A DNA stretch of 44,792 nucleotides from an uncultured Verrucomicrobia subdivision 3 bacterium. GTDB lineage: Bacteria > Verrucomicrobiota > Verrucomicrobiia > Limisphaerales > UBA11358. The stretch is from assembly GCA_903842235.1 (NCBI GenBank), contig CAIMLG010000146.1, forward strand, positions 1-44,792, read 5' to 3'. The notes below the pieces were generated by a model that made no database searches, was not told the DNA's origin, and saw nothing but the letters and a program-made list of their open reading frames with translations. Shown here piece by piece: positions 1-6,909 of the stretch. The translations under genes were made by a program, and so were the position numbers. Each line of letters starts with the position of its first letter. Positions within the stretch are counted from its first letter, which is position 1.

Positions 1-12
1 GACCATTCGACC

Positions 13-50
13 GCCGGGGGCGCGAGCTAAGGCTCCGGCTCGCCCCCGGC
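13..50. repeat. Strong GC-rich hairpin
   Basis: A near-perfect inverted repeat: GCCGGGGGCG plus GAGC on the left pairs with GCTCGCCCCCGGC on the right, with one extra C in the left arm and a loop of about 10 nt. No U-tract follows on either strand, so a classical terminator is unlikely. It may be a dispersed palindromic element or the end of a structure cut by the window edge. Confidence 0.6.
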
Positions 51-587
51 TCATTCTATCTCGTTGCGGGGGCACGGGAAATTAACACAACAAAAAAACC
101 AAACCAAAAAACCACTTACACAGAAATCTTTACAAAACCATCCGGGGAATAACCGTGTCCAGCTGCACCCGTTCGGAGTCGCCGCGATGCTATTTCGCTG
201 GACATGAGTGTCGAGGACGCTGTGCCGCCGGCGCGCCAAAGCCATCCAGCGCCACCCCCTGTTCACCCAAATCGTCGCCACTTACCGGACGGACATTCAA
301 CTGGCCTAGGCCCCCCACCTAGCCGACCGCAGATGGATTCAGGGTGGAACAGGCCACTGGCCTGTGGTGCCCGGCGAGGCGGCCTCGCGGCAGCCTCCTC
401 ATCGGTTTGATGCAAGGATGTTGTCTCGGCAGCTTCCCACCAAACCATTGCTGGTTTCGCAGGTGCCGATAGGCTAGTGCGGACGGAACCGCACGTTCGT
501 CTTATGTCATTTTTACTCATGTTTTCATATCGAACAATCATCACAACCCCATCATTATTTCGCACAAGGTCGTGGCCCTTTGGAATC
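51..587. other. Non-coding stretch with clustered hairpins, no credible gene
   Basis: I see no convincing gene here; open frames lack ribosome sites and recognisable composition. The part from 349 to 494 holds several perfect short stems: 349-355/359-365, 374-380/382-388, 442-447/452-457 and 477-482/489-494, plus an enclosing pair 427-431/464-468. This suggests a folded RNA or recombination-site remnants. I could not match it to RNase P RNA, tmRNA, SRP RNA or a group II intron by eye. Confidence 0.5.
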
Positions 588-994: not shown

Positions 995-1083
995 GGCCAA
1001 CCAGTCGCCGGAGCCGGTTGGCGCTGGCTGTTCCGCTTCGCGGACAACGCCATGAATCCGGCGCGGCTCTTTTTTCGTTAGCC
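995..1083 (+). repeat. attC-like recombination site 1
   Basis: An 89 bp imperfect palindrome. The left end is GGCCAAC (inverse-core position) and the right end GTTAGCC fits the integron core consensus GTTRRRY. Internal segments pair: GCCGGAGCCGG on the left with CCGGCGCGGC on the right, TGGCG with CGCCA, and a central CCGC-TTC-GCGG hairpin. The next gene starts nine bases after the core. Length, ends and position between same-strand small genes fit attC; no other known element class fits as well. Confidence 0.65.
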
Positions 1084-1091
1084 CCCACCGC

Positions 1092-1643
1092 ATGAAGCGC
1101 ATCACTTGCATCCTACTCGCTTGGTTATCGCTTTCTGCTTTTGCTCAGGAGCGTGACTACCGGAAGTTGCCCGCCATCACTCCAAGCGCCACCGATGTTC
1201 TTGCTGCTTCAGGCATTGAGGTGTTTGCCTTCCGCTTGCCTGTCGCCAACACGAACGGATGCGTCATTTCCTTGCGCCTCAAGCACGGCAAGAAGGATAG
1301 AGAGGTTGATCTGTGCAGGAGACTTTCACACGATGAGTTGACTGGCAGAGGCGATGTTGACGTGATTGTCACCATTCAAGAGACGCGGACGTTTTTTGGA
1401 GGTCGGAAGCTCAAGGTTGGCTACATGGTTGGGGGATGCTCTGGCTCGGTGGTAGTCAGCGCCCGCGATATGCCATTTATTTTCGGCGGCGATGTCATGC
1501 TTGACCCAGAGAACAAGATTCTACTGGCGGGCTCGTATAGGACTGGCTTGCCGTCAGTTGATGGTCAGCGGACGGCTTTGTATTTGGTGGCTTCGCCGTG
1601 GATAGACGAAGGGGCTAACCACCAATGGATTGGAAAGGACTGA
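1092..1643 (+). CDS. Secreted protein of unknown function (cassette gene)
   Basis: A 183-residue protein with a Sec signal peptide (MKRITCILLAWLSLSAFA, cleavage probably after AFA-Q), so periplasmic or exported. I do not recognise a domain. The mature part has three Cys (one near residue 57, one in DLCRR, one in GGCSG) and a glycine-rich FFGGRKLKVGYMVGGCSG segment. It begins just after the core end of the attC-like site at 995-1083, typical of a cassette-borne gene. What follows the stop is unusual: a decayed phage-like sequence and repeat A rather than an immediate attC site. Confidence 0.7.
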   Translation: MKRITCILLAWLSLSAFAQERDYRKLPAITPSATDVLAASGIEVFAFRLPVANTNGCVISLRLKHGKKDREVDLCRRLSHDELTGRGDVDVIVTIQETRTFFGGRKLKVGYMVGGCSGSVVVSARDMPFIFGGDVMLDPENKILLAGSYRTGLPSVDGQRTALYLVASPWIDEGANHQWIGKD

Positions 1644-1703
1644 GGCGCGGAGGGAGCGTGGCCATGTTTGAGAGTGGGATCGCGCCGAATGTCCTTTCCA
1701 TCC

Positions 1704-1822
1704 GTGGTTGAACCAGCCCTTTTCCGCTTTCCCAATTTCAGTTTTCCGCTTTTTCCTCAAAACCCCCCTGCGCTTCCGCTGCGTAATCGTCCGGTTCTTC
1801 GTCGCCACCAGATCCGCAGCGC
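1704..1822 (-). pseudogene. Decayed repeat B copy 1: terminase-like C-terminus remnant
   Basis: This stretch repeats at 4019-4135 with scattered substitutions and small indels. Read on the minus strand it encodes LVATKNRTITQRK, the same peptide as the other copy. Upstream codons still read D-A-L-R but are joined through a one-base deletion. Because the shared peptide follows a DDAADCLRYL-type motif in the second copy, I interpret both as remnants of a phage large terminase gene end. Too short for certainty. Confidence 0.45.
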
Positions 1823-1912
1823 ATCGGGGGCGCCAACCGCGCCGCCATCTGGCGGTTGGGCACTCGCGCCGGCCCAGACCTGACGCCAAAGGTCAATGAC
1901 CACTGGACACCG

Positions 1913-1968
1913 CGCCGAATCTACGGTTTCGCCTTGCGCCCGATTCCTGCGCCTGCTCTAATCGCCTT
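1913..1968 (+). repeat. 56 bp repeat A, copy 2, promoter-like
   Basis: Second copy of the repeat at 588-643, with a single mismatch (A at 1923 instead of T at 598). The -35-like TTGCGC and -10-like TCTAAT at 1957-1962 are kept with the same 17 bp spacing. It lies about 110 bp upstream of the gene at 2077 and could drive it. Confidence 0.6.
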
Positions 1969-1983
1969 GAAATCCATCGTGAA

Positions 1984-2072
1984 AACGAACCTGCCCAATT
2001 CCCAGTTTATGCCTCAATATCCGCTTAGCAGGAATCGTTTCCTTGTAATTAATTAGTTCGGCGGCGTTCGCA
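1984..2072 (+). repeat. Weak attC-like site candidate
   Basis: The left end AACGAAC and right end GTTCGCA are roughly complementary and 89 bp apart, and the gene at 2077 starts four bases after the right end, as in the clearer sites. Internal pairing is poor and the middle is AT-richer than in the other sites. Given mainly because position and length fit the array. Confidence 0.25.
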
Positions 2073-2076
2073 CCCC

Positions 2077-2451
2077 ATGCAAATTCCGGCAACCCTCAAA
2101 TGGATTAACCGGCACAGCGCCTCATCGGTGTTGCTCTTGTTGCTGCTTGGCGCGAGCGCCTTCGCTCACGTGCTTGCCCATGTCAGGATGGAGGTGGCCA
2201 GCCGACAGTTTGCCATCATGGATGACCGCACCATCCGGCAGATGGGCGTCATCGACTTCATGCACGCTCACTACTGGATTGCCATCGCTTACGGCACTGT
2301 CTTCTTTGCCACCTTGCTGTGGTTGGAGTTCCGCAGCGCACCGCGTTGGGCGGTCTGGGTCGCGTTCTGCCTTCTGGCTATGCCATGCATCATTTACGCC
2401 GGCGCTTGCTTGCACATCGGCAACAAGTTCATTCTCTGGACGACGACATGA
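2077..2451 (+). CDS. Small integral membrane protein (cassette gene)
   Basis: A 124-residue protein with about three predicted membrane segments: residues 17-34 (VLLLLLLGASAFAHVLAH), 66-84 (YWIAIAYGTVFFATLLWL) and 92-111 (AVWVAFCLLAMPCIIYAGA). A hydrophilic loop of about 30 residues (RMEVASRQFAIMDDRTIRQM) lies between the first two. I recognise no family. The first segment could alternatively be a signal peptide. The gene sits between a weak attC-like site upstream and a strong one that begins 20 bases after its stop, consistent with a mobile cassette. Confidence 0.65.
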   Translation: MQIPATLKWINRHSASSVLLLLLLGASAFAHVLAHVRMEVASRQFAIMDDRTIRQMGVIDFMHAHYWIAIAYGTVFFATLLWLEFRSAPRWAVWVAFCLLAMPCIIYAGACLHIGNKFILWTTT

Positions 2452-2470
2452 GAGAGTCAGAAACCACGCT

Positions 2471-2566
2471 GCCGAACAAGATCACTGGACCGAACGCGGG
2501 AAGGCCGCGTCGATTGCCAATTCGGACGCCCCTGGCCGCCCGCGCCGGCCAGTTCTGCCGTTAGCC
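2471..2566 (+). repeat. attC-like recombination site 2
   Basis: A 96 bp imperfect palindrome bounded by GCCGAAC on the left and GTTAGCC on the right. The inner left block ACTGGACCGAACGCGGG pairs with the inner right block CCCGCGCCGGCCAGT, and a central GCGTC...GACGC stem closes the structure. The middle is almost the same as in the site at 3048-3140. The following gene starts at 2574, eight bases after the core, the usual tight spacing of cassette genes. Confidence 0.75.
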
Positions 2567-2573
2567 ACTACAT

Positions 2574-3032
2574 ATGCGTTTACTGATTTCCACATTTTTG
2601 TTCGTTGCACTTCTCGCGGCCGGTTGCGGTCGTAATGGTTTTTCCGTCGCGCCTGCCGCATCTGATGATCAGAAGAAAGGGCAGGATTCCTCGTCCAATA
2701 GCAGCACGTTGACTCGCACGGACATCGCGTCCGGGCCCAATCCTGCCGCCGATTATGATTCCGTCCGTGATGGCGAGGAAGCACAGGCCAAATTCTCAGG
2801 AGGTGACGGTTCGAGCATTAAAAAGGCTGTTGTTATCACTGCCAGTAGTGAGACGACGGGATATCGTGCAGCCTACATTTGGTTGCACGAGCATTATCCT
2901 GGTTCTCGTCTTCAACGCGAGGGTTTCGCCTATGATGATGCTGGCTCGTATTACGCCGAGATTACGATTGTCACGCCCGATGGCAAATCGCGCACCGTAT
3001 GCTTCGAGACCACATCATTTTTTGGGAAGTAG
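2574..3032 (+). CDS. Lipoprotein of unknown function (cassette gene)
   Basis: A 152-residue protein with a lipoprotein signal, MRLLISTFLFVALLAAGC (lipobox LAAGC, Cys18). After the lipidated Cys comes a low-complexity, Ser/Asp/Gly-rich linker to about residue 75, then a compact domain (residues 80-152) with several Tyr and a YYAEITIVTPDGKSRTVCFE strand pair. The ending resembles small periplasmic domains that make a beta-sheet, but I cannot name a family. It is enclosed by two attC-like sites, so the unit 2566-3140 has the form of one complete integron cassette. Confidence 0.7.
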   Translation: MRLLISTFLFVALLAAGCGRNGFSVAPAASDDQKKGQDSSSNSSTLTRTDIASGPNPAADYDSVRDGEEAQAKFSGGDGSSIKKAVVITASSETTGYRAAYIWLHEHYPGSRLQREGFAYDDAGSYYAEITIVTPDGKSRTVCFETTSFFGK

Positions 3033-3047
3033 TAAAATGAGGACGTT

Positions 3048-3140
3048 GCCTAACAAGATTGGACCGAACGCGGGCGGGCCGTGTCGATTGCCAATTCGGA
3101 CGCCACTGGCCGCCCGCGCCGGTCAGTTCCAACGTTCGAC
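3048..3140 (+). repeat. attC-like recombination site 3
   Basis: A 93 bp imperfect palindrome from GCCTAAC (a perfect inverse core, RYYYAAC) to GTTCGAC. The interior is nearly identical to site 2: GGACCGAACGCGGG on the left, GTCGATTGCCAATTCGGACG in the middle, CCGCCCGCGCCGG on the right. Near-identity of consecutive sites is characteristic of sedentary chromosomal integrons. The next start codon is at 3147. Confidence 0.75.
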
Positions 3141-3146
3141 GAGTGT

Positions 3147-3467
3147 ATGAATTCGGCAGCATCACAACTTCAGGCCCACCTCGAGGTTGTGCTGTCGCCA
3201 GATGAGTCCACCGAAAATCTCGTGAGCCTTGCGAGGCTGATCTGGGTCACGGTTTCACCGCTTCCGCCGGAGCTGCAGTCGTTGCGTTTGGATCGCGAGA
3301 CCATAGCGAAGAGCTTCGCACAGTGGTGTAGCGCACACCGATTGAAGGATAGTGAGACAGCTGCGCCGAAGTTCTGGGATGCTCAGATTATGGCCGCGTT
3401 GAGAACGGGGACAGCTTTTGAGCTGGAAGCGGCCCTGCGTCTGTATCGAGAACGGTCCAGCAAATGA
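3147..3467 (+). CDS. Small soluble protein of unknown function (cassette gene)
   Basis: A 106-residue, probably cytoplasmic, largely helical protein without signal peptide or membrane segment. I chose the ATG at 3147 (MNSAASQLQAHLEVV) because the longer frame from 3081 runs through the attC-like palindrome, and the start then sits six bases after the core, as in its neighbours. No motif recognised. The stop is followed almost at once (3472) by another attC-like site, so 3140-3564 has the form of a complete cassette. Confidence 0.65.
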   Translation: MNSAASQLQAHLEVVLSPDESTENLVSLARLIWVTVSPLPPELQSLRLDRETIAKSFAQWCSAHRLKDSETAAPKFWDAQIMAALRTGTAFELEAALRLYRERSSK

Positions 3468-3471
3468 GCAT

Positions 3472-3564
3472 GTCGAACAAACCGGCTGCACCGAATGCCT
3501 CGATGACGTCGCTGTTTCAATCGGGACATCACTGGCTCGGCATCGGTGAGCAGGAGCGTAACGC
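3472..3564 (+). repeat. attC-like recombination site 4
   Basis: A 93 bp palindrome starting with GTCGAAC. Its right end GTAACGC is degenerate relative to GTTRRRY. The inner left arm CTGCACCGAATGCC pairs with the reverse complement of GGCATCGGTGAGCAG. The sequence differs from sites 2 and 3 although the length is the same. The next gene starts at 3568. Confidence 0.6.
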
Positions 3565-3567
3565 GTC

Positions 3568-3960
3568 ATGAGATTTCTACTCGTAATCATGTTTTCGATA
3601 GCGCTTGCTGGTTGCGGCAAGCCGGATCCGAAGTCTCAGTTTGAGATGATGCTTACGAAGCCGATGCCGAGTTCTGTTACGAGCTTGCGATTTGATCGTG
3701 ACTTCATGGGCGCTGACCCGACTTACCATCTGTCCTTCAGTGCGAGCACTCAGGACGTGATCGCTATCGTCACAGGCAAGAAGTTACAGGCTGCCAGTGA
3801 GGCTGACACGCCAATTGGTGGCTACCATCCAGTTTGGTGGCATCTTGACGAGCTAGGCACTAACCGGACATTTTACACGCTCAAGAAGGAGCGGTCTGTA
3901 GAGTTTTTCTGGGTTTCTGTGTCGGGCACGAATGCTTATTACCTGTTCTTGGGATTATGA
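3568..3960 (+). CDS. Lipoprotein of unknown function (last cassette gene)
   Basis: A 130-residue protein with a lipoprotein signal MRFLLVIMFSIALAGC (lipobox LAGC, Cys16), followed by KPDPKSQFE. The mature domain is short with aromatic strands (YHPVWWHLDELG, VEFFWVSVSGTNAYYLF). I recognise no family. The start lies four bases after attC-like site 4. No attC-like palindrome follows the stop; instead repeat B copy 2 begins about 60 bases downstream, so this may be the distal end of the array or a cassette whose site has decayed. Confidence 0.7.
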   Translation: MRFLLVIMFSIALAGCGKPDPKSQFEMMLTKPMPSSVTSLRFDRDFMGADPTYHLSFSASTQDVIAIVTGKKLQAASEADTPIGGYHPVWWHLDELGTNRTFYTLKKERSVEFFWVSVSGTNAYYLFLGL

Positions 3961-4018
3961 GAATAGTTACGATATTAATCGACAAGGGATTGAATTGACC
4001 GGAGCGTCATTTCAATTA

Positions 4019-4170
4019 GTGGTTGAACCCGCCCATTTCCGCTTTCCGAATTTCCGCTTTCCACTTTTTCTTCAAAACCCCCTGAGCTTCCGCTGCGTAA
4101 TCGTCCGGTTCTTCGTCGCCACCAGGTACCGCAGGCAGTCGGCGGCATCATCGGCCCCAATCCGCTTTCA
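4019..4170 (-). pseudogene. Terminase large subunit C-terminus remnant (repeat B copy 2)
   Basis: On the minus strand, 4167 down to 4072 reads K-R-I-G then ADDAADCLRYLVATKNRT, I-T-Q-R-K-L-R-G-F and a stop. The DDAADCLRYL stretch resembles the C-terminal nuclease end of phage large terminases, where a DDA-x-DALRY motif is common. There is no start or upstream domain, and an in-frame TGA lies just before the segment. A second reading frame of the same DNA stays open to a TAA beside 4019. Copy 1 has an extra G in the G-run, suggesting frameshift decay in one of the two. Best explained as scars of prophage DNA; the family call is from motif memory only. Confidence 0.45.
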
Positions 4171-4181
4171 CAAAGTGGGTT

Positions 4182-6653
4182 TCACAGCCGGATGATGGTG
4201 AAAGAATAGCCCGGAAAGGTGACCTTGCTCTCGCCGTCTTTCAAGCCGTGCTGCCATGCGACGGACGTGGGCTGGATGGCCCCCGGGTTGTCGGCTGTGT
4301 TGCGGGCGTCCAGCCTGCCTTCAAGTGTCAGCACCTGCGCCCCGCTGTGGACCGGAATAAATCCGGCTATCTTGAGCGGCAGCGTCACGGCCTTTTCGCT
4401 GACATTCACTACTTGCAACACCAGCGTGCGGCCATCCTCGCTCTTCGTCGCGCTCACGTCGAGATCACGCATCGGACAGTCGCTTTTCACGACGAGCGGT
4501 TGGTGGTTGCGGGAAATCATTTGCGTCACATAGCCCGGCGGCTGGAGCCAGACGTGCGCCGGGTTCAGGAACAGCAACCCCTGATTCCAGCCATTGTCGT
4601 TTTGGCCATCCGGTTGGAGGCCGTTCGCCGAGGCCGTGATCGGCAGGCGGCCATCCCGCTGAATGGCATTCAAGGCCAGGGCGTTCGCCAGCGCGCGGCG
4701 CTGGGAGTGGTTGTTGGCATTCAATTCGAACACCACGACTTTGTGTTTCGCGCCCGCCGCGATTTGGTCCAGCGCATCAATGTAAGACAGCATCGCGGGC
4801 AGGCTGCTGTCCGGGCGCGGACCTTCCGTCCACACATGCAGATCAAACCACACTTCGCGGTGATGCTGTTTCGCCAGTTGCAATATCTTCTGCTGCGCGG
4901 CCAGGCTGGTAATGCCGCTGTCGGCCCCGCTGAAGTGGAACGGATCGGTAATGTTTTGGTGGTACGAAAAATCCCCCACGATCAATATGATCTCGGGATC
5001 TTTCGCCCAGATCACTTCCGCCGCCGCCTTGAACTTCTCAAAATAGCGGTCATCCACCCGCTCTTCATTGCCAAGTTCAAGATATTTCAACCGATACGGC
5101 GCCGGATGACCGTCGGCCACGCGCTGCTGGCCCCATTGGCTGGCGGGCGCGGCGTTGAGGTAGTCCATGAAATCGCTCATATCTTGGGGCGACTCGTTAA
5201 TATCAAGATCGGGAATGCCCACCATCCCCGCAGCTTCGCTGAAGTTCAGGAAATCAAAAATCCCCCAGCCATTCGAAGAATACGGATACCAATGACCATC
5301 ATAGGGCGGCCGCTGGGCGCGCGGCCCGATCATTTTCTTCCACCGGTAGTCTGGATTATTAACCATGCTCCCGCCGTAGCGCAGGATCGTCACACCCTGA
5401 TTGATTAATCCTTCGGCCGCGTCCTTGCGAACCGGCAGACCTTTGAAGCGTCCCCACGAACCCGGCTGTAAGAAAACATACCCCATGGAAACCGAGCCGG
5501 GCTGCTTGAGCTTGACCGCAAATCGCCCGGCCTTGTCGGCTGCGTTCGGCGTGAGCTCGAAATTGAGCCGCTGCCAGTCGCCGGCCTTGAGCTTCAGAGA
5601 TTTTTCGGCATAAACGTTCGCACCGTCCGGGCTTTCCAATGCGACGAATAATTTTGAATCCGCTTGGGCTCGGGCCCAAAGATAGCCCTCGTAGCTTTTG
5701 CCTTTCATAAAATTCATCCCCCAGCGATTAAGGCTTTGATTCTCTATCCCGATTACGCCCGCGCCGCCGGCAAAAGTAATCTGCTGGCTCTGGCTGCCGG
5801 AAAAGGCGTTTTGCGTGGCGAGCGAAAAGCTTCCTTGGGCGTTCCCTTGGCGGATGGGGCGCCACATGCCGCTCACGCTGTCCGCCGGGCTGTTTCCGCT
5901 GTCATCTTCAAACGGCACCGGTTGGGGCTCGGTTCCCGTTTGGACGCTGAGGTGGCGAAACCCAACCTTGTGCTGCCAGATGCGCAAGCCCACGGTGCCG
6001 GTTTCGAGGGGATGCTCCGTGTCTTCGAATTGCGCCAGACGTTGGCCGTTGACCAGCACCTCCAGGGTCTTGGCGGTCAGCCGCACCGTCAATTTTATCC
6101 ATTCGTTCACCGGCACATCGCACGGCACGCGCTGAATCGGCTCCCAATTTTGCCGATGCCGGCCGATGATCAGCCAACCGGGCCGTTCGAGCGACACTTC
6201 ATAGCCGGTGAACGCATCCGCGCCTTTGCCGGCGCTGCTGACCTTGAGCATCAAGCCGCCATTGCCGCCGGTGGCTTCCGTCAGCATGACTTCAACGCTG
6301 ACCTCGCCCTTGGAAAACGCCGGGCCATTCCACACCATTTTGGAACCATTGCTCCCCGCGCCTTGCACCCGGCCATCCGCCGTGGTCGTCCAGCGGCCGC
6401 CGTGGGCAGTGAACCCCTTCAATGGCCGTTGCGCCGCCGGTTCGGCAAAGCTTTCGCCAAAAATCATCTGGCTGTCGAGGCCGCCGTAGATCTCGTGGTT
6501 TACATCCTCGATGCACGCGCCGGTCAGGTAAGGCGTCACGCGATGCAGCACCTGATTGGCGTCGATCGTGATGGCCGCCTCTTGCGCCCCGGCGGCGATG
6601 GCCAAAAGGCCGGAGAGAACCAAGCTTGGGATAAGGCGTTGCGGGCGTTTCAT
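4182..6653 (-). CDS. Secreted GH51-type alpha-L-arabinofuranosidase
   Basis: An 823-residue exported enzyme that probably releases terminal arabinose from plant-type polysaccharides. The start MKRPQRLIPSLVLSGLLAIA gives a signal peptide (cleavage near AGA-Q); a longer in-frame extension to 6857 would bury it. After the family signature IEDVNHEIYGGLDSQMIFGE (residues 48-67) there is an inserted LamG/concanavalin-like region (about 75-240), then a carbohydrate-binding-like beta domain (about 250-400), the catalytic barrel (about 405-690) and a C-terminal beta domain. Glu530 in LELGNEE is the likely acid/base and Glu643 in VVFELNAN the likely nucleophile. It stands alone, converging on the cassette region. 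Confidence 0.85.
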   Translation of the reverse strand: MKRPQRLIPSLVLSGLLAIAAGAQEAAITIDANQVLHRVTPYLTGACIEDVNHEIYGGLDSQMIFGESFAEPAAQRPLKGFTAHGGRWTTTADGRVQGAGSNGSKMVWNGPAFSKGEVSVEVMLTEATGGNGGLMLKVSSAGKGADAFTGYEVSLERPGWLIIGRHRQNWEPIQRVPCDVPVNEWIKLTVRLTAKTLEVLVNGQRLAQFEDTEHPLETGTVGLRIWQHKVGFRHLSVQTGTEPQPVPFEDDSGNSPADSVSGMWRPIRQGNAQGSFSLATQNAFSGSQSQQITFAGGAGVIGIENQSLNRWGMNFMKGKSYEGYLWARAQADSKLFVALESPDGANVYAEKSLKLKAGDWQRLNFELTPNAADKAGRFAVKLKQPGSVSMGYVFLQPGSWGRFKGLPVRKDAAEGLINQGVTILRYGGSMVNNPDYRWKKMIGPRAQRPPYDGHWYPYSSNGWGIFDFLNFSEAAGMVGIPDLDINESPQDMSDFMDYLNAAPASQWGQQRVADGHPAPYRLKYLELGNEERVDDRYFEKFKAAAEVIWAKDPEIILIVGDFSYHQNITDPFHFSGADSGITSLAAQQKILQLAKQHHREVWFDLHVWTEGPRPDSSLPAMLSYIDALDQIAAGAKHKVVVFELNANNHSQRRALANALALNAIQRDGRLPITASANGLQPDGQNDNGWNQGLLFLNPAHVWLQPPGYVTQMISRNHQPLVVKSDCPMRDLDVSATKSEDGRTLVLQVVNVSEKAVTLPLKIAGFIPVHSGAQVLTLEGRLDARNTADNPGAIQPTSVAWQHGLKDGESKVTFPGYSFTIIRL

Positions 6654-6909
6654 AAAGGATAATAGCCGCTTAAACCGTTGGTAATGGGCGAGCATGGCAA
6701 ATCGGCTGGCTGCTGGCAATGGGCGAGCCCCCGGCGACCGGAAAATTCCCGCCCCCCCCGGTGTTCGCTGGACACCTCGGTTTTCCCTGTTTACGAGCTG
6801 GCCATGGCTTTGGAATTGACAATGTTTTCTGCGCGGTTTCCCCGTCCGCCGCGCCATCGGCCGCGCCAGACTTGCAAATCAAGGCGTTTTGGGGTTTCCT
6901 TGGTTCACG

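Follow-up and report, generated by a model that had tools for sequence, protein, structure and literature searches.

An integron gene-cassette array in an uncultured bacterium of Verrucomicrobia subdivision 3

Related systems and the array under study

Clusters of attC sites lacking an integrase (CALINs, a term of IntegronFinder), recognised where two or more attC sites lie less than 4 kb apart (PMC9668308), have been described together with their possible origins (PMC8618304, PMC9024848), and one of them, in the Shewanella prophage M16-3, has its own attI and counts terminase among its flanking genes (PMC9892861). Sites derived from attI have been published inside clinical arrays (PMC12901181), and cassettes are reported to insert outside arrays at attG sites (Loot et al. 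2024, via PMC12901181). The DNA analysed here (the window; 44,792 bases, G000:C146:1-44792) belongs to the draft genome, 4.32 Mb in 354 contigs and 88.65% complete, of an uncultured Verrucomicrobia subdivision 3 bacterium. Its positions 995-3564 are an integron gene-cassette array, very probably one that is headed by an attI site and has no adjacent integrase gene.

Like CALINs, the array has at least two attC sites around short genes with no intI nearby; the sites lie less than 4 kb apart and all point the same way. It differs in that an attI-like site is retained within the cluster, upstream of which lies a segment without a head. With the M16-3 cluster it shares an attI of its own and terminase sequence in the flanks, but it has terminase 3'-end fragments only, a sugar-hydrolase-type gene on its right and no intact integron found in the genome. 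Integrons of the same genus have homologous attC sites (genomes G295, G424 and G392) and a homologous attI junction (G432); those four genomes have intI, whereas the present assembly lacks it. The most fitting name for the locus is attI-headed CALIN; that it is a sedentary chromosomal integron is not proven. This second label, given to it in an earlier note made from the letters of this DNA, is not supported, because it needs intI and searches of the window and of the draft genome turned up none; nor is there a large homogeneous set of attC sites, since the six sites fall into two families, with a likeness of about 90% confined to sites 3 and 4. What stands of that label is the cassette array and its polarity. 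The system is thus of a known kind and the array a good, not an unprecedented, example, mildly unusual in its internal attI, a second orphan attI elsewhere, its two attC families and its ends against terminase fragments. It leaves the concept of the integron unchanged, and its interest is that of a well-bounded array in Verrucomicrobia subdivision 3 with an entry site, two attC families and congener integrases, in a group many of whose genomes carry integron machinery.

Ribosomal protein S1 is about 91% identical to that of several uncultured Verrucomicrobia subdivision 3 genomes, and the phylum proposed in the earlier note is therefore right. An integron integrase above the cut-off is present in 107 of 387 sampled Verrucomicrobiota genomes and in 19 of the 49 genomes searched within the genus, and 29 of 48 other genus genomes have some match to window positions 995-3960, family-2 sites and terminase repeats being among these matches. 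That such arrays are little described in the phylum is true only as to detail: a review already names Verrucomicrobiota among the integron carriers (PMC8618304), and the integrase has the frequency just given. No title on Verrucomicrobiota integron arrays was among the literature matches listed, which covered open papers.

The attC sites

The four palindromes of 89-96 bp that had been reported from the letters, with inverse-core and core ends, are present as claimed (89, 96, 93 and 93 bp) and all four are real. The count is nevertheless incomplete, having missed sites at 1613-1713 and 3973-4028 and the attI-like site at about 1979-2062. The vocabulary used here (R'', L'', extrahelical base) and the bottom-strand preference of attC are in part background from the integron literature. 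Sites collected under strict criteria from congener and phylum loci number 27, at 15 of 61 loci, two of them counted twice through the overlap of loci L112 and L127. A covariance model, R1, was made from 19 aligned bottom strands, none from the genome itself and 10 from loci around intI; RNAalifold on this alignment gives R and L boxes, with both-sided changes in 10 of 22 pairs. A second model, R2, was made from nine congener copies of the second site family, again excluding the genome itself. The sites are as follows.

995-1083, + strand: attC site 1 (family 1), 89 bp; R1 54.0 bits, E 3.4e-13, bottom strand
1613-1713, + strand: attC-like site 2 (family 2), overlapping the end of ORF A; R2 94.3 bits, E 1.1e-20
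2471-2566, + strand: attC site 3 (family 1), 96 bp; R1 28.6 bits, E 7.9e-6
3048-3140, + strand: attC site 4 (family 1), 93 bp; R1 28.6 bits, E 7.5e-6
3472-3564, + strand: attC site 5 (family 1, diverged), 93 bp, core GTAACGC; R1 13.8 bits, E 0.15, partial
3973-4028, + strand: degenerate, short attC-like site 6 (family 2); R2 25.4 bits, E 4.6e-4

The earlier note had counted the lack of an attC covariance match among the results that would refute it. When all 44,792 bases were searched with R1 on both strands with filters off, matches were found, ranks 1-4 going to sites 1, 4, 3 and 5, all on the bottom strand; the fifth match had E 0.59, and chance-level R1 matches in other loci reach E 0.05. 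Homologues of site 1 occur in congener arrays and also beside intI in G295, where the copy at C6:22185-22298 adjoins the integron integrase gene at C6:20685-21632 on the opposite strand. In G295 (L112), G424 (L108) and G392 (L110), family-1 sites are found on the attI side of intI, within about 0.5-1.2 kb of its 5' end. Within the window, sites 3 and 4 share 90% identity over 77 bases (repeat D1).

Folding of the bottom strands leaves two L''-side bases unpaired in site 3 and two L'' bases, 6 pairs apart, in site 5, the latter like a G295 site (L127:5435-5527); site 2 has one L''-side extrahelical base, as does site 4 (RNA fold and DNA centroid). The anatomy of attC, with R and L boxes and extrahelical bases in L'', is thus found except in site 6, which has no such base, and in site 1, whose L'' arm is damaged, about 6 of its bases being absent relative to congener sites. 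Site 5, weak by R1 alone, is assigned to attC on its L-box geometry and the end signature described below. Single-strand DNA folding z-scores of the four sites are modest (-0.76 to -2.37) and do not discriminate; two sites of the integrase-bearing congener G295 give -1.74 and -1.03. An Rfam scan gave no match to an attC family and nothing above noise except a group II intron fragment. A simple motif-and-fold search for the attC consensus was rejected as proof, with a mean of 2.41 matches per dinucleotide-shuffled window (100 shuffles).

Cassette ends

When a cassette circularises, its start core becomes the R' of its own attC; the start and end cores of one cassette should therefore match. This signature was scored in 17 cassettes, four in the window, three elsewhere in the genome and ten in congeners, with the last cassette of the array (site 5 to site 6) excluded. 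Matches beyond GTT average 7.82 of 11 within cassettes, against 5.40 over 272 mismatched pairs, and none of 20,000 permutations reached the observed sum; for the seven cassettes of the genome itself, 14 of 5,040 permutations did so, the true one included. In the window the R'' of site 2 (GGCTAAC) is complementary at 7/7 positions to the core of site 1, that of site 3 (GCCGAAC) at 7/7 to the attI core, that of site 4 at 6/7 to the core of site 3, and that of site 5 (GTCGAAC) at 7/7 to the core of site 4. Start cores are thus complementary to the R'' cores of their own attC sites, most weakly in the cassette between sites 3 and 4.

The attI-like site and the missing integrase

Two attI-like sites were located by homology in the genome.

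About 1979-2062, + strand: attI-like site, with core GTTCGGC at 2056-2062, preceded by TAATTAATTA
L188 (G000:C275), about 2000-3020, - strand: second attI-like site with the gene that follows it; no intI alongside

Window positions 1979-2067 are 82% identical over 90 bases to the junction of intI and array in congener G432 (C49), and in both places TAATTAATTA is followed by GTT; judged by this homology, a putative attI stands at the head of the array, as in a complete or sedentary integron. The copy on C275 is 90% identical over 129 bases. Behind it lies a gene named by eye as a putative methyltransferase; the core at the downstream end of this gene agrees with the attI core at 13/14 positions. 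The C275 locus yields one chance-level tblastn match to IntI (E 0.09).

An intI adjacent to attI, the other mark of a complete integron, was not found. The earlier note had suggested that an intI be sought on the neighbouring contig; searches of the window and of the draft genome gave no integron-integrase gene, although, the draft being incomplete, this does not prove its absence from the organism. The tyrosine recombinases of the genome (13 PF00589 matches) were considered as IntI and rejected, none being over the IntI cut-off, and a small match at the start of C25 was read and not accepted as intI. A 56-base repeat (588-643 and 1913-1968, 98% identical) heads both segments of the array; compared with 40 IntI proteins as a possible N-terminal stub of intI, it gave no convincing match.

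Cassette genes

Each cassette holds one or a few short genes on the same strand, and the cassettes measure 630, 504, 574 and 424 bp. Six open reading frames (ORFs) of cassette type were recognised, none with a Pfam match over the cut-off.

647-988, + strand: gene 0, lipoprotein-like, 113 aa
1092-1643, + strand: cassette A gene, signal-peptide protein, 183 aa
2077-2451, + strand: cassette 1 gene, membrane protein, 124 aa
2574-3032, + strand: cassette 2 gene, lipoprotein-like, 152 aa
3147-3467, + strand: cassette 3 gene, 106 aa, no evident signal peptide
3568-3960, + strand: cassette 4 gene, lipoprotein-like, 130 aa

The genes of cassettes A, 2, 3 and 4 start 8, 7, 6 and 3 bases, respectively, after the preceding 7-base core, and that of cassette 1 starts 14 bases past the attI core; gene 0 ends 6 bases before site 1, and the start of its cassette was not found. 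Read by eye, the proteins comprise three with lipoprotein-like starts, one with a signal peptide, one membrane protein and one with none of these features, which bears out the description of same-strand genes for mostly exported or membrane proteins to which no function can be assigned. The membrane protein of cassette 1 has 25 relatives besides itself in a large protein set, mostly on short contigs, with no listed Pfam domain among them and none in viral contigs. The six proteins, own copies excluded, had no match at E 1e-3 in the loci with which they were compared.

Cassettes elsewhere in the genome

At least four further R1 sites lie elsewhere in the genome (C294, C16, C324 and C290); this is a lower bound, because the genome-wide scan, in which 150 of 3,181 candidates were scored, left sites 3 and 4 of the window unlisted. 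The site on C290 (L194, G000:C290:31000-36500, about 2570-3150) belongs to a single lipoprotein cassette between ruvC and ruvA. A survey with ruvA matched 46 other genomes, and 27 of the 29 congener loci fetched show both ruvC and ruvA. In G415 (L331) the gap holds an attC of 55.6 bits with a different gene, and the other 26 loci have no R1 match at E 0.1; in these, ruvC and ruvA lie -6 to 483 bases apart, and some of the gaps contain other short genes. Cassette-sized presence and absence between relatives, which the earlier note had proposed to look for at the array, is observed at ruvC-ruvA, another locus. The ruvC-ruvA cassette looks like an insertion at an attG site; it differs in that it lies outside the window, that no event was observed and that the gene in G415 is a different one. 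It would teach more than the array about the way in which cassettes leave arrays.

Interpretation and alternatives

On the proposed explanation, each cassette consists of one short gene and an attC site, and IntI supplied from another place would bind attC in its folded, bottom-strand form and recombine it at the G|TT of attI or of another attC, such that cassettes would be inserted in one orientation, readable from the attI side. Cassettes 1-4 (2056 to about 4028) stand behind attI; cassette A and gene 0 (647-1713) form the tail of another array segment, located upstream, whose head has been lost. We infer that intI was lost or replaced, after which the array would have been fixed unless IntI acts in trans. 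The structure and homology of the sites, the cassette-end signature, the homology of attI and the lack of a detectable intI in the assembly are directly seen; recombination activity, expression from the attI side and the order of the losses are what the arrangement would imply. A wider proposal is possible, if doubtful: the integrons of this lineage may have broken into attI-headed modules without intI (the window and C275) and solitary cassettes with two attC families, scattered off-array with recurrent landing at prophage terminase 3' ends and ruvC-ruvA, which would circulate without a resident integrase and be served in trans.

Several results weigh against this interpretation. Site 5 is sub-threshold with R1 alone (E 0.15). 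The cassette between sites 3 and 4 has only 4/11 end matches beyond GTT, the C294 cassette of the same genome 2/11 in an ungapped comparison, and cassette 4 (site 5 to site 6) no end-core match. Neither R1 nor R2 found an attC behind the C275 attI. Where the TIGR02249 cut-off is 265 bits, the best scores in the genome are 84.8 and 73.5 bits, from frames whose matches are piecewise; no IntI was found in the genome at E 1e-25, and tblastn of 40 IntI proteins, taken from 50 IntI loci, gave no match in the window. No sigma-70-like promoter was found in 1900-2120. For the array itself no orthologous locus was comparable, and R1 gave no site at the 11 congener arabinofuranosidase loci, taken with flanks of up to 1.5 kb, a result of little weight where synteny is not conserved.

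Best placed among the alternatives, yet unlikely, is that the array belongs to a complete integron, its intI being located past the left end of the contig or absent from the draft. The contig does start in a repeat of about 139 bases (window 1-139) that recurs at one end of at least seven other contigs and is probably the terminus of a mobile element at which the assembly broke; the genome is incomplete, and 19 of the 49 genus genomes searched have an IntI over the cut-off. With attI at about 1979-2062, intI would be expected within a few hundred bases leftward and none was found there, so that an off-contig intI could only drive the array from a distance.

Less probable again is that a prophage or phage-like element carries the cassettes as cargo, with the ends of the array marking its terminase end. 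The features on which this turns, with the right-hand neighbour, are the following.

1714-1907, - strand: fragment resembling that at 4029-4161, antisense to the array, with repeats D2 and D3 shared with 4006-4125
4029-4161, - strand: fragment that carries the 3' end of a gene for a terminase large subunit and runs antisense to the array; 79% by tblastn to the final 29 residues of the terminase of G432
4182-6857, - strand: arabinofuranosidase-like gene (Pfam), right neighbour of the array

Sites 2 and 6 are each followed by one of these fragments, and a CALIN that lies in a prophage and has an attI of its own has been published (PMC9892861). Positions 1714-1907 have 80% identical DNA at G432:C59 beside a full terminase gene (PF03237) that comes after apparent phage early genes (by eye); this copy gave no significant tblastn match and is assigned to terminase by its DNA likeness to the fragment at 4029-4161. 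Terminase 3' ends stand beside attC or family-2 sites in G432 as well (two places, one degenerate, by eye) and in G295. Against this, a survey returned 46 terminase matches in 18 of 49 genomes, and of the 30 loci fetched (28 with the 3' end) only two have the family-2 pattern in reach, one of these beside a fragment rather than the full gene, and no R1 match surpassed E 0.05; beside the array in the window, no further phage gene was identified. The idea that arrays generally sit at terminase ends was rejected on the same survey, with 2/30 loci by pattern search and none by R1. Fragments of the terminase 3' end recur between genes of cassette type, most plainly in G432:C59 (L187 10082-12100), which carries several short genes, each with such a fragment behind it.

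Ordinary intergenic palindromes (REP, MITE or terminators) that resemble attC by chance are very improbable, for although family-2 sites occur on nine other contigs of the genome, often with conserved downstream sequence, and the short form is a near-perfect stem without the extrahelical base of a classical attC, the family-1 sites match a covariance model from the integron sites of other genomes, complementary cassette ends are not expected of REP or MITE elements, and even the family-2 site on C16 matches the upstream attC core at 11/14 positions on its R'' side. Because its short form has no extrahelical base, the attC standing of family 2 rests on context.

Minor observations

In this genome, family-2 sites (L143, L142, L174-L180) often precede GTTGAACCAGCCC and about 60 further bases that are also conserved. 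The arabinofuranosidase gene is present in 11 other genus genomes, and its neighbours are not conserved. At the left edge of the array lies one further feature.

354-495, - strand: group II intron domain 1-4 fragment, 86 bits (Rfam)

No intron reverse transcriptase was found in the genome. Group IIC-attC introns insert in the bottom strand of attC at TTGT/T (PMC7923331); the apparent 5' end of the fragment, GTGCG near 565, is preceded by CCTT, not TTGT (read by eye, on a domain 1-4 fragment only). Among the IntI proteins of the genus, one has an in-frame insertion of about 95 aa at about profile position 230 (G387:C32:163-1407), and two others have an insertion of roughly 30 aa at the same place (G393:C84:2303-3220 and G401:C120:966-1898).

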